From the NCBI RefSeq assembly GCF_015209745.1, contig NZ_CP063657.1, forward strand, positions 2,604,001 through 2,668,000: a DNA stretch of 64,000 nt, in the 5' to 3' direction. The translations under genes and the position numbers were made by a program. Every line of letters starts with the position of its first letter. The first letter of the stretch is position 1. Shown here piece after piece: positions 14,855-18,888 of this stretch. This stretch comes from Lysobacter avium (lineage in GTDB: Bacteria; Pseudomonadota; Gammaproteobacteria; Xanthomonadales; Xanthomonadaceae). The notes under the pieces are model-generated. The model was not told where the DNA came from and did not search any database. It saw only the letters and a list, made by a program, of their open reading frames with translations.

Positions 14855-15646
14855 ATGCGAATCGACCGGTTTCCAGTGCGGTTAGCACTGCTTGCCGCAG
14901 TGACGCTGGCGCTGGCGGGCTGTGGAATCCGGCAACTGGCGCGCGCCGAGGCCCTGGTGCCGGATCACGGTGGGCACGCCGTCAGGGTGCTGACGATCGG
15001 CAATGTGGGGCTCTACGACTTCATGTCGGTACTGCCCGGCGGCGCAGGTGATCGTTGTCCGTTGGCTGAAGCCAGCTCCAAAAGGATCACGGTTGGCGGC
15101 TGCGGCAACGATGCGCGGGAGATGCTGCCCTGGCTTGAGGCCTTGCTGCCTGCGATCGAGGCCTACCTTCCGGAGATTCACGTATCCCGGCTGCGGGTTT
15201 CCCTGCACCGGCCCGGCTCCAGGGTGCTGAAGAGGGGATGGCGATCGTCCGCACTGGACAACATGACGGTGGCGATGTCATTTCGCTACGCGCCGGGGAG
15301 CGAGCGACATGCGAGATACGCGGTGCGCGTCCTGGCGCACGAGCTGACCCATGTCGCGCACAAGCGCAGACCCCTCCAGGGCGAATCAGAAGAGTATTTC
15401 GGCGCCCTCGCCGAATCCTGCGTCGAGTACGCCGGATTCGGGTCCACGTCTGGCTACGCGTTCGAAACCGACGTGAAGGCAACGATCTCCGACGACTTTA
15501 ACGACGCGCAACGGGAATCAGCGACGGAGGCCCAGCGCGCCTACAGGTCGGTCATCGAATTTGCGGGGGATGACGGAACCGTCCGTCAGCCCAATACGGC
15601 TTTTGAGGCATTTTGTACTGCAAGCATTGGAGTCAGCAAGGCATGA
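14855..15646 (+). CDS. Unrecognised lipoprotein with a HELTH zinc-metallopeptidase motif
   Basis: A 263-residue protein I do not recognise. It has a lipoprotein signal (lipobox LAGC, Cys23) and, at 162-166, HELTH: an HExxH zinc-binding motif inside a helix (VRVLAHELTHVAHKRR). Glutamates at 179, 180 and 187, 13 to 21 residues after the second His, are candidates for a third zinc ligand of gluzincin type. Four further cysteines (68, 83, 189, 254) could form disulfides in the periplasm. It starts 17 bp after the kinase gene without an obvious Shine-Dalgarno, so it may depend on read-through translation. It is probably a secreted peptidase or a pseudo-peptidase; the substrate is unknown. Confidence 0.75.
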   Translation: MRIDRFPVRLALLAAVTLALAGCGIRQLARAEALVPDHGGHAVRVLTIGNVGLYDFMSVLPGGAGDRCPLAEASSKRITVGGCGNDAREMLPWLEALLPAIEAYLPEIHVSRLRVSLHRPGSRVLKRGWRSSALDNMTVAMSFRYAPGSERHARYAVRVLAHELTHVAHKRRPLQGESEEYFGALAESCVEYAGFGSTSGYAFETDVKATISDDFNDAQRESATEAQRAYRSVIEFAGDDGTVRQPNTAFEAFCTASIGVSKA

Positions 15647-15704
15647 GCATCGCGGTGGTCGCAACAAAGGCAAACTGCGCGACGCAACTCCGACGACCCG
15701 GCAG

Positions 15705-16484
15705 TTAGTTCCAGCCCGGCATCCGCTCCGGATCGAGCCCGCCGACCTCGAATGACGCGGTGCGTTTGCCGCCAGCTTTGACCGGGAACTCGATGCTGAG
15801 CACGCGCGCCTGTTTGGCCAGCTTCCACAGGGTCTTCTCGTCCTCGACGAACATCGCTATCGCATCGTCGGTGTGGGGGCGGCTGCCGGCCATGGAGCGC
15901 GGCTTTTCTTCGTCGACGGTGACGGCGAGCTTGCAGCCCTTGTAGCAGTCGAAGTCACCGGCCTCCAGGACGAGGTAGCTGCTGCGGCCCCACTCGGGGT
16001 GGTCGCGGAAGATCAATCGCACCGGCCGGGCTGAAGTGCCGTCGGTTTCGACGTTTTCACGCGCGTAGATCGCCGCCGACAGCTGCTCCTTCTTGCCGAC
16101 CGGCTGGCTCTGGTAGGTCCATAACCCGGTCAGCCGTCGGGTCTCGCGTATCTCATTGGCTTTTGCCGCCGCCTCCTCGTGCCGACCGGCGATGCGTTCG
16201 GCGGCCGCGCTGTCGGGGTATTCGGCGATCAGCACGTCACCGTGCGCCTTGGCCAGGTCCCACTTGCCGGCATCGAACTGGGCGTCGAACTCGGCCGCCA
16301 TCGCCTCGGCCTGGCGGTCCAGCGCGGCGGCCTGCTCGGCGCGGGCGATCTCGGGATCCGGCTCGGGCTTGCACCCGCCCAGGAGCACCGCGCACGTCAG
16401 GGCGACGAGCATCGGCAATCCGCGCGTCAGTTGTGGACCGGATTGCGGTGGGTGGTCGGCGGGCTCGAAGGGCTTACAGGTCAT
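15705..16484 (-). CDS. Hypothetical lipoprotein
   Basis: A 259-residue protein with an N-terminal segment LPMLVALTCAVLLGGCKPEPDPE that looks like a lipoprotein signal (lipobox LGGC). It is preceded by about 24 hydrophilic residues, so the true start may be an internal codon nearer the hydrophobic core. The chosen ATG has a GAAAGAGAA Shine-Dalgarno-like stretch. A helical region rich in Ala/Glu (about 45-115) is followed by a beta-rich domain with GLWTYQSQPVGKKEQLSA and DFDCYKGCKLAVTVD. I recognise no named family. It converges on the HELTH lipoprotein gene. Confidence 0.7.
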   Translation of the reverse strand: MTCKPFEPADHPPQSGPQLTRGLPMLVALTCAVLLGGCKPEPDPEIARAEQAAALDRQAEAMAAEFDAQFDAGKWDLAKAHGDVLIAEYPDSAAAERIAGRHEEAAAKANEIRETRRLTGLWTYQSQPVGKKEQLSAAIYARENVETDGTSARPVRLIFRDHPEWGRSSYLVLEAGDFDCYKGCKLAVTVDEEKPRSMAGSRPHTDDAIAMFVEDEKTLWKLAKQARVLSIEFPVKAGGKRTASFEVGGLDPERMPGWN

Positions 16485-16602
16485 TGCGTGGTTCTCTTTC
16501 AGTTCAGGACTCAAGCGTGCCTGATTTTCAGTCGGTCTTCCCGCGTTGCCGTGTGGGTCCATGGCGTCCATGGGGTCTTTGGTCGGGCTCTGGCGGGAGA
16601 GC

Positions 16603-16692
16603 CGGGGGTGAACGCCCTTGCGGCGAATGTCCCCCGGCACCGATGAAACCGGTGCCTCCTCCTTTATTTCGCCGCAAGGGCATTCACCCCCG
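16603..16692 (-). repeat. Structured intergenic repeat, family 1, copy A
   Basis: A near-perfect 24-bp inverted repeat (arms 16603-16626 and 16669-16692, 23 of 24 paired) encloses two conserved strands. Read on the minus strand these are AAATAAAGGAGGAGG (16655-16669) and CCGGGGGACATT (16626-16637), separated by an inner 7-bp stem with a 7-nt loop (16636-16642 with 16650-16656). The same two strands recur in copy B in opposite orientation with different arm sequences. Confidence 0.8.
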
Positions 16693-16746
16693 TCATTGCG
16701 AGAACGCGGTGGTTGCAGGAGCGAGAATCCACCAGTTCCGGCGCGG

Positions 16747-16830
16747 TCTGTATGCCTTCCGGGCGAAATAAAGGAGGAGGCCTGCGCCGCAGGCGGAGGC
16801 CGGGGGACATTCGCCCGGAAGACATGCAGA
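16747..16830 (+). repeat. Structured intergenic repeat, family 1, copy B
   Basis: The outer arms 16747-16766 and 16811-16830 pair at 18 of 20 positions. Inside are the same conserved strands as copy A, now on the plus strand: AAATAAAGGAGGAGG (16766-16780) and CCGGGGGACATT (16800-16811), around an inner GCCTGC/GCAGGC stem. Arm and inner-stem sequences differ from copy A but remain self-complementary. The pair fills most of the 454-bp gap between a lipoprotein gene and the M1 peptidase gene. Confidence 0.8.
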
Positions 16831-16938
16831 TCACGCCCCGAAATCCATCCAGATGAGCGCGGATACGAAAGCCGGAAGCCGGATACAACGCGACCGCCCG
16901 GAGGCGGCCGCGAAGAAGACGTCCAATCAACTGAGCGA

Positions 16939-18888
16939 TCAGTCGACCGGCTTGGTCACCGACTTGTCGCCCTTGGCCTCGGCGATGACGGCATCCACCG
17001 AACCGGTGGTGATCGGATGGTAGCCGGGACGTGCCTGGGCGAGCACCTTCTCGGCCATTGCCAGGCCTTCCGGAGTCTTCACCAGCTCGGCGTAGGTCGG
17101 CATGATCAGCTTGCGGCGGCCGACGCGCTCCAGGAACGCGGCAATCGCGTCATTGGCTTGCGGATAGCCGCTACGCACGGTCAGCGGGTACCAGCGCATC
17201 GCGATCTCGCCGTTGGGGGTGCCGGTGAACTTGTAGGCGGCGTCCAGCGCGGCCAGCTGCTCGTGGCTCAGCGTCTGCGGCATGCCTTCCAGGAAGTGCA
17301 GCCACTCCTGCGTGCTCCACTTGGCGGTGACGTCGCTGGCCGGCAGGGTGCCGTCGTCCAGCCAGGCCTTGCGCACGGTGTCGACCGCGTCGAACTGCGG
17401 CGACCTGGTCACCGGCGCGGACTCGGGGATCCCCTGGCCGTAGATCCACTCGTCCAGCTCGGCCTCGGTGACTTTGCCGGGGTGCTTGGCCAGCAGGTTG
17501 TCCTTGGCGTACTGGATGAAGGTCGTGGTCGGGATCGACTGGAACGCGAAATGGTCGAAGTAGCCGCGCAGGAACGGGTCGAAGTCCTCGCGGCCGAAGC
17601 GGTGCTCCAGGAACATCATGAACCAGGCGCCCTTGTCGTAAGCGACCTCGGTCAGGGTGTCGCCGGCCTTGACGTGGATGTCGGGGCGGATCGCCAGCGC
17701 CTGCGCCTGCGGCTCCATGTCGCCGATGGTCTTGCGCAGCTCGTTCTGGGCGATCGCCGCTTCCATGTTGGCGAAGTCCTTGCCGTACAGCGACTCGATG
17801 ATGCGGTTCTCGACGTAACTGGTGATGCCCTCGTTCATCCACTGGTCTTTCGGGCTGGAGAAGGTCACCAGGTTGCCGGCCCAGCTGTGCGCCAGCTCGT
17901 GGGCGATCAGCGAGACCAGCGACTTGTCGCCCACGATCACGGTCGGGGTGGCGAAGGTCAGGCGCGGGTTTTCCATGCCGCCGTAGGGGAAGGACGGCGG
18001 CAGCACGAGGATGTCGTAGCGGCCCCAGCGGTACGGGCCGTACATCGCCTCGGTGGCCTCGATCATCTTCTCGGTGTCGGCGAACTCGGCGGTGGCCTTG
18101 TCGACCATGGCCGGCTCGGCCCACACGCCGCTGCGATCGGAGATCGGCTTGAACTCCAGGTCGCCGGCGGCGATGGCCAGCAGGTAGGACGGGATCGCCT
18201 GCGGCATGGCGAAGGTGTAGTCGCCGTCACGCTCCGCCTTGGGATCGTTGTCGGCGCTCATCAGCACCATCACGTCCTTGGGGCTGGTCACGTGCGCGCT
18301 GTAGGTGAAGCGCACGCGCGGCGTGTCTTGCAGCGGCACCCAGGAGCGGGCGTGGATCTGCTGCGACTGGCTGAACATGAAGGGCTGCTTGCCGCCCTCG
18401 GTCATCGCCGGGGTCAGCCACTGCAGGCCCGATGCGTCCGGCGAGGTGCGGTAGGTCACGCGCACGCGCTTGTTGCGGTCGGGCACCTGGATGGTCAGCT
18501 TGCTGCCCAGGCGCTTGTCGGCATCGGCCAGCTCGTACTTGAGGTCGGTCCACTTGTCGTCGCTGCGCTCACCGACCACCTTCTCGATGGTCAGGTCGCG
18601 GGTGTCGAGCACCAGTTCGTTGGCGTCATCGGCGACCCAGTCCAGGTCGTAGGTGGCGCTGCCGCTGATTTCCCTGGCGTCGAAGTCGACGTTGAGGGCG
18701 AGCGCGAGGTCCTTGATGCGGACCTTGTCGGGCTCGGCGTAGGACAGCGAGTCGTACTCGGCGGGTGCGGCGGTGGCCACATCGCCATCGGGTTTGGCGG
18801 CCGTATCCGCGGCCGGCGCGTTGTCGCGCGAGCAGCCGCCCAGTACCACGGCGGCGGCAAAAAACAGGGTCAGGATCGAGGAGCGCAT
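16939..18888 (-). CDS. M1 family aminopeptidase, membrane-anchored lipoprotein
   Basis: A 649-residue zinc aminopeptidase of the M1 family, LTA4-hydrolase-like branch. The lipobox is LGGC (Cys19). The exopeptidase motif GGMEN is at 303-307, and the zinc motif HELAH at 330-334 has its third ligand Glu353 in WMNEGITSYVE. The C-terminal helical domain (about 480-640) is of the LTA4H type. It probably sits on the periplasmic side, releasing N-terminal residues from peptides. It follows ubiE on the same strand after about 70 bp. Confidence 0.95.
   Translation of the reverse strand: MRSSILTLFFAAAVVLGGCSRDNAPAADTAAKPDGDVATAAPAEYDSLSYAEPDKVRIKDLALALNVDFDAREISGSATYDLDWVADDANELVLDTRDLTIEKVVGERSDDKWTDLKYELADADKRLGSKLTIQVPDRNKRVRVTYRTSPDASGLQWLTPAMTEGGKQPFMFSQSQQIHARSWVPLQDTPRVRFTYSAHVTSPKDVMVLMSADNDPKAERDGDYTFAMPQAIPSYLLAIAAGDLEFKPISDRSGVWAEPAMVDKATAEFADTEKMIEATEAMYGPYRWGRYDILVLPPSFPYGGMENPRLTFATPTVIVGDKSLVSLIAHELAHSWAGNLVTFSSPKDQWMNEGITSYVENRIIESLYGKDFANMEAAIAQNELRKTIGDMEPQAQALAIRPDIHVKAGDTLTEVAYDKGAWFMMFLEHRFGREDFDPFLRGYFDHFAFQSIPTTTFIQYAKDNLLAKHPGKVTEAELDEWIYGQGIPESAPVTRSPQFDAVDTVRKAWLDDGTLPASDVTAKWSTQEWLHFLEGMPQTLSHEQLAALDAAYKFTGTPNGEIAMRWYPLTVRSGYPQANDAIAAFLERVGRRKLIMPTYAELVKTPEGLAMAEKVLAQARPGYHPITTGSVDAVIAEAKGDKSVTKPVD

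Follow-up and report, generated by a model that had tools for sequence, protein, structure and literature searches.

The hairpin pair and its neighbouring genes

The window, i.e., the whole stretch of 64,000 nucleotides that was analysed (C1:2604001-2668000), belongs to a one-contig genome of 2,854,808 bases (G000). At the site described here, hairpin A on the minus strand and hairpin B on the plus strand lie head-to-head, 5′ end against 5′ end (Table 1). Their right-hand neighbour, a minus-strand frame (16939-18888) with its 3′ end toward the site, reads like an M1-type peptidase. The left-hand neighbour, also a minus-strand frame (listed as 15705-16640), reads like a lipoprotein; its listed start falls within hairpin A, so a later start is likely.

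In each hairpin, an outer helix of about 25 bp and an inner stem enclose an internal loop whose strands are fixed. The arms of A (16603-16627/16668-16692) are 25 nt long and 96% complementary, and those of B (16740-16767/16810-16837) are 28 nt long and 86% complementary. An earlier note, made from the letters, had described a pair of structured repeats with both core strands exact, extending over 16603..16830. The pair itself is borne out by folding z-scores of the purine-rich strand of −9.1 (A) and −6.2 (B) and by the core strings found in both hairpins, whereas the end has to be moved, since the arms of B reach 16837 and the unit thus ends at about that position. Taken alone, CCGGGGGACATT is no rarer than expected by chance at two mismatches allowed. 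Recent insertion at the window site was ruled out by orthologous copies in G000, G002, G008, G001 and G007.

Table 1. Parts of the hairpin pair, in positions of the window
Feature	Position	Strand	Basis or remark
Hairpin A (outer helix, purine core, inner helix)	16603..16692	-	pairing, folding, covariance-model match G000:C1:2620600-2620696
A core 3′ strand CCGGGGGACATT	16626..16637	-	exact string match
A inner stem-loop	16638..16654	-	pattern search, folding
A core 5′ strand AAATAAAGGAGGAGG	16655..16669	-	exact string match
Linker between outer arms	16693..16739	.	sequence poorly conserved between species, length constrained
Hairpin B (outer helix, purine core, inner helix)	16740..16837	+	pairing, folding, covariance-model match G000:C1:2620739-2620837
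B core 5′ strand AAATAAAGGAGGAGG	16766..16780	+	exact string match
B inner stem-loop	16781..16799	+	pattern search, folding
B core 3′ strand CCGGGGGACATT	16800..16811	+	exact string match

Copy number and distribution

Two objections foreseen in the earlier note, a lack of further copies and arms that are not complementary, both fall away: the arms pair as given above, and a strict two-part pattern found 23 copies in the genome and 0 for the reversed control. Judged by eye, every one of the 23 strict copies is faced by a partner or the remnant of one, in 22 cases of the opposite type (the partner of L001 is B-like, and L006 and L011 have remnants only). A looser scan recovered 35 hairpins at 19 sites in this 2.85-Mb genome, with a detected pair at 15 of the 19, a number of sites that is a lower bound because the scan covered stretches around known matches. 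A 36th hairpin (L194, 1274877), a chance match within an open frame, was dropped from the 35 and is still counted in the gene-context, strand-asymmetry and ortholog-divergence statistics below. A and B are two hairpin types making up one composite unit. The earlier reading missed this unit of near-constant spacing, as well as the strand asymmetry described below.

The strict pattern was present in 6 of 60 genomes including the own one, i.e., 5 of 10 of the genus and 1 of another genus. Covariance model R1 matched 20 of 149 genomes of the own family, from 7 of 54 genera, and gave 2 matches in a genome of the same genus (G004) that yet lacks the strict pattern. In a second family, that of G264, it matched 110 of 250 genomes; with 74 of the 141 sampled genera of that family as carriers, the repeat is widespread. 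A class-wide sample yielded model matches in 3 of 274 genomes, all within the same two families. Because no more than 15-27 candidates per genome were scored with the model, copy numbers are lower bounds. Among the matches listed from an exact scan (80 of at least 120 stretches) were Stenotrophomonas, Lysobacter, Luteimonas, Hydrogenophaga, Variovorax, Ramlibacter and Rhodoferax, and the second carrier family is probably the one to which the Burkholderiales among these named records belong. Plasmid and phage records contained no match to the repeat. Apart from records of Lysobacteraceae and Burkholderiales, the repeat occurred in JAHREJ01 records titled Bacillus subtilis SK7B5 (L061, L065, L069, L078), which are probably mislabelled or contaminated.

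Covariation of the fold and composition of the core

In 53 divergent hairpins from many genera, 90.4% of the pair cells were paired, compared with 61.3% after shuffling and 37-40% for slid partners; two-sided changes were found at 32 of 37 pairs, with a covariation score of 0.677 versus 0.170. Within the own genome, hairpins of the B type were 93.6% paired with two-sided changes at 23 of 38 pairs, and those of the A type 90.2% paired with such changes at 15 of 35 pairs; one pair column is misplaced in alignment A4. Both the covarying stems and the internal loop of fixed strands between two helices, which had been proposed from A and B, are therefore upheld by the covariance alignments.

The core consensus, derived from 333 hairpins chosen by core similarity with G·T counted as paired, a choice that favours G·T, comprises a closing 5 bp followed by 5′ RTAAAGGRGGA, with GGRGGACA on the 3′ side. 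The middle R bases of the 5′/3′ strands were A/G in 289, G/A in 18, A/A in 12 and G/G in 5 of these hairpins, and a Fisher test on 324 of the 333 hairpins, in which related sequences are counted repeatedly, gives p 1.6e-17 for covariation between the two core strands. GGAGG and GGGGG thus exchange strands in some hairpins, which indicates a constraint between the core strands and not to 16S rRNA, so that the earlier hint at an anti-16S (Shine-Dalgarno) role for AAGGAGG loses its ground. The closing pairs covary as well (GCGAA/TTCGC, GCGAC/GTCGC, GCGGC/GCCGC, GGGAC/GTCCC), and a variant, GCGAAGT/CATGAGC, would put tandem G·A pairs there. As far as the letters can tell, the core points to an ordered purine-purine structure, and a two-layer G-quadruplex would be possible.

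Strand asymmetry

Strand asymmetry is the decisive test of selection on the fold: the mismatches that the helices tolerate are strongly biased toward those compatible with folding of one strand. When read on the purine-rich strand, G·T exceeded A·C by 117:18, 44:4 and 20:4 in the alignments (columns less than 70% paired left out) and by 331:24 (all classes summed) in a sample whose arms were picked on Watson-Crick pairs only and of which 30 loci had been chosen by covariance model. In the latter sample, purine-purine mismatches exceeded pyrimidine-pyrimidine ones by 236:29. The inner stems had a weak asymmetry of 142:94, obtained by crude pairing and from hairpins whose choice counted G·T as paired, which favours G·T. 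Loci partly overlap in the strand-asymmetry, spacing and core-consensus samples, and orthologous sites are not independent.

The G·T:A·C ratio was 16:0 in the genus set and 50:2 in the wider set for hairpins antisense to both neighbours, and 11:1 and 42:1, respectively, for sense hairpins; it was 55:5 and 58:4 at convergent sites and 6:0 and 19:1 at divergent sites. Since the asymmetry is alike in all four classes, it is independent of neighbouring transcription, and since A and B lie on opposite strands at the same place, replication bias should not account for it. The fold of the purine-rich single strand appears to be selected in place.

Evolution at orthologous sites

For 13 of the 19 sites, stretches with a copy and matching flanks exist in each of G002, G008 and G001, and for the remaining six in one or two of these genomes; s05 is assigned to the latter group, since one pair only is present in the stretches of G008 and G001. 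In G007, both flanks around a G000 copy were found at 5 of 14 sites. Between G000 and G002, changes amounted to 10/588 in the core, 49/722 in the inner stems, 161/1829 in the arms and 150/738 in the linker, at a coding divergence of 5.6% and a divergence of other intergenic DNA of 11.4%. The corresponding core and linker counts were 11/397 and 97/469 between G008 and G001, and 28/513 and 167/667 between G000 and G008. Over the three species comparisons, the core thus diverged by 1.7-5.5% and the linker by 20-25%. The arms diverged by 8.8-11.8%, faster than coding DNA (5.6-8.7%) and near the class of other intergenic DNA (9.7-17.3%); taken whole, they are weakly constrained.

Two independent species pairs (G000-G002 and G008-G001, with 32 and 23 hairpins) were used for changes of base pairs between orthologs. 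One-sided changes from Watson-Crick pairs led to G·T in 54 cases, to A·C in 10 and to other mismatches in 39, and 12 two-sided Watson-Crick changes were found. Core constraint and strand asymmetry therefore seem to persist after insertion.

Several candidates for empty sites were rejected. One in G002 turned out to be an internal deletion, s35 and s36 held large unrelated inserts instead, and some non-carriers at the L195 locus had merely shorter intergenic gaps, too diverged for target duplications to be recognised, in an alignment that mixes orientations for reverse-strand loci. At the same site, the non-carrier G003 (L296) has a GTAG-type inverted repeat, TGTAGGAGCGGCTTCAGCCGCG, where carriers hold the hairpin pair. 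At L254:10966-11185 in G002, an internal deletion fuses the outer end of hairpin A with the 3′ half of hairpin B.

Possible roles as folded DNA or structured RNA at gene ends

The head-to-head arrangement stated for the window site was recovered widely: among 72 sites in four genomes of the genus, 48 were of the '-+' layout and 1 of '--+', 23 were single and 0 tail-to-tail, and in the wider set 63 of 112 sites were '-+' and 2 were isolated '+-'. The gap between cores was 80-129 bases in 95 of 110 pairs, and the linkers of different genera look unrelated. Gene neighbourhoods, here and in the strand-asymmetry classes, were called with a GC3-based script in place of annotation. In this genome, 11 of 18 intergenic sites had convergent neighbours, compared with 18 of 127 adjacent gene pairs (p 4e-5) and with 15 of 64 gaps of at least 100 bases (p 0.004), and 2 of 18 were divergent.

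We tentatively favour, as quite possible, the reading that the hairpin pair is a facing unit of a dispersed BIME-like repeat, of which the purine strand is kept foldable and the core would be a putative protein-docking site on single-stranded DNA. Transcription, replication or supercoiling could open the duplex and leave the purine-rich strand single, and the freed core would then fold compactly through G·A or G·G pairs, possibly as a two-layer G-quadruplex between two duplexes, to be bound by a putative protein. The facing pair with its fixed spacing might hold a dimer or two molecules, in the way that E. coli BIMEs bind gyrase or IHF; binding of gyrase, IHF or Pol I is a trait of BIMEs. The pair could spread on whatever carries it, which in G986 would be a small transposon-like unit with inverted ends. 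A more specific and, on present sequence evidence, rather unlikely version is that the host maintains the single-stranded hairpin pair, with a purine-purine or two-layer G-quadruplex core between duplexes, to recruit a dedicated putative protein to the ends of genes in Lysobacteraceae and Burkholderiales, the chromosomal site being read as folded single-stranded DNA and not as duplex or RNA.

A structured RNA at transcript ends is the main rival and a close one, possible if somewhat doubtful, in which the purine-strand hairpin would act as a terminator, a 3′-end stabiliser or a protein-binding site and the pair would serve both directions. Covarying helices, a fixed internal loop and strong tolerance of G·U are typical of RNA, and the wobble excess would be easier to explain. 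Many sites come shortly after a stop codon, frequently with convergent neighbours, whose transcription may cover both strands. Furthermore, a Bordetella repeat of similar size overlaps a region from which Northern blots detected RNAs of 80 and about 200 nt (PMC3110155), which would lend support if that repeat is related. Against an RNA stands the equal asymmetry of hairpins antisense to both neighbours. The linker had no sign of a conserved promoter at the window site, in the linkers of different genera or in the three species comparisons, and no T run, such as an intrinsic terminator would have, followed the hairpins in the copies inspected. Of the 67 classified genus sites, 38 were convergent, so that both strands may be transcribed there, whereas 7 were divergent, and no more than 30 of the 83 classified sites of the wider set were convergent. 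Taken together, the antisense asymmetry and the unconserved linker favour DNA, whereas wobble tolerance and gene-end position favour RNA.

If the purine strand acts as folded single-stranded DNA, the old question of the function of gene-end repeat palindromes would become directly testable, since the core is a defined target for mutation, the strand can be chosen, and one genus contains both carriers and non-carriers. As an RNA, it would be a structured RNA of two bacterial families for which no description was found in our literature search.

Mobility

A selfish non-autonomous mobile element, whose transposase would recognise the hairpins and their core, is an improbable explanation, although the repeat has dispersed recently in one relative. 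G986 has undergone a recent burst, with 18 complete near-identical pairs in 17 of the 20 stretches examined. A transposon-like unit of about 420 bp (commonly 410-436), in which the pair is embedded, occurs there in about 48 copies (L397-L416, L447-L466); it is bounded by inverted GGYTCTTC ends and flanked by AT-rich 8-bp sequences that match. The inverted ends, GGTTCTTCKCCCAA..., were counted as a 20-base motif 97 times versus 2 for the control. The flanking 8-mers of 31 units had a mean identity of 4.9/8, compared with 2.5 for mismatched ends, and 0 of 10000 permutations was as high; they were exact in 4 of the 31 units and at least 7/8 in 6, and A-rich or T-rich surroundings could add to this agreement. 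The unit was very likely moved by transposition, and 8-bp target duplications are likely. G986 units are often next to terminator-like T-tracts.

The inverted ends, however, lie beyond the hairpins. Four short units (L450, L451, L453, L456) possess both ends and no hairpin match, so the hairpins look like cargo unless they were lost later; they may be dispensable for movement of the unit, with later deletion as a possibility, and recognition of the hairpins by a transposase is already weakened as an explanation. Moreover, orthologous copies retain the core across species divergence. Ends of the GGYTCTTC type were not seen at the window copy or, by eye, in the copies of G1040, G1026 and G658 (4, 6 and 2 pairs), in which respect these copies differ from the ISL3-type MITEs that the G986 unit presumably resembles in its ends and flanks. 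No transposase for the G986 unit was found, nor was an autonomous element, and one candidate span of 5.5 kb in G986 (L447) seems to consist of two separate units.

Template switching on DNA, which would produce two-sided arm changes such as those observed and keep palindromes perfect with no selection, is very improbable, because it should be strand-symmetric and leaves the 331:24 ratio and the fixed unpaired core unexplained; palindrome correction alone is refuted by the asymmetry, unless strand-biased repair exists.

Relation to known repeats

REP/BIME/REPIN sequences are short intergenic palindromes, often inverted doublets, with species-specific amplification and compensatory stem changes (PMC2817692), and a REP measures 20-40 bp (PMC3733652). 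The hairpin pair shares all of these traits except size, its hairpins being about 85-105 nt, and has the BIME/REPIN layout of two inverted palindromes at regular spacing. It differs in that the internal loop strands are conserved, with the same core in two families, and in that the GT(A/G)G head 5′ of the REP palindrome is absent, the 333 hairpins having RTAAAGGRGGA/GGRGGACA cores in its place.

Movement as a REPIN/BIME by a RAYT (Y1) transposase, although suggested by intergenic inverted palindrome doublets and by the one Y1 (RAYT-like) frame in the genome (L024, G000:C1:2501139), is hardly credible and largely refuted as a general mechanism, since the GT(A/G)G head is lacking, the 3.2-kb locus of the Y1 gene in G000 holds no hairpin, whereas the cognate Y1 gene of a REP is flanked by the repeat, and Y1 presence is uncorrelated with carriers. 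Within the genus, 2 of the 5 genomes that carry the strict pattern have Y1, as do 3 of the 5 that lack it; G004, one of those lacking it, has 2 model matches and no Y1. In the second family, Y1 was found in 84 of 110 carriers versus 102 of 140 non-carriers (p 0.56), and G264, despite at least 16 model matches, contains no Y1 candidate.

The earlier statement that no named element has this layout holds for Rfam 15, which gave no match above the gathering score in window positions 15500-18000, the best sub-threshold models being microRNAs. It is less secure for two repeat families described in Bordetella, which may be relatives of the hairpin family, as judged from their descriptions. The Beta-proteobacterial repeat element (BRE) is described as about 90 bp long, GC-rich and mostly intergenic, from Bordetella and Comamonadaceae, and as tandem repeats with few bases between (PMC3110155). 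The Bor-1 stem-loop family is intergenic and has 128 copies of 93 bp in B. pertussis and 196 copies of 117 bp in B. bronchiseptica, with RNAz scores of 0.93 and 0.86 (PMC2267715); by description, its size and intergenic position are similar to those of the hairpins. In a literature search for the core, with figures and most subscription papers outside it, no description was found and the core letters appeared only in works with unrelated titles. BRE forms direct tandem arrays, whereas the hairpins here mostly form head-to-head pairs with partial tandem copies beside some. These partial tandem duplications of hairpin pieces adjoin complete pairs in a VNTR-like manner (L199:3924-4230; L478, L479).
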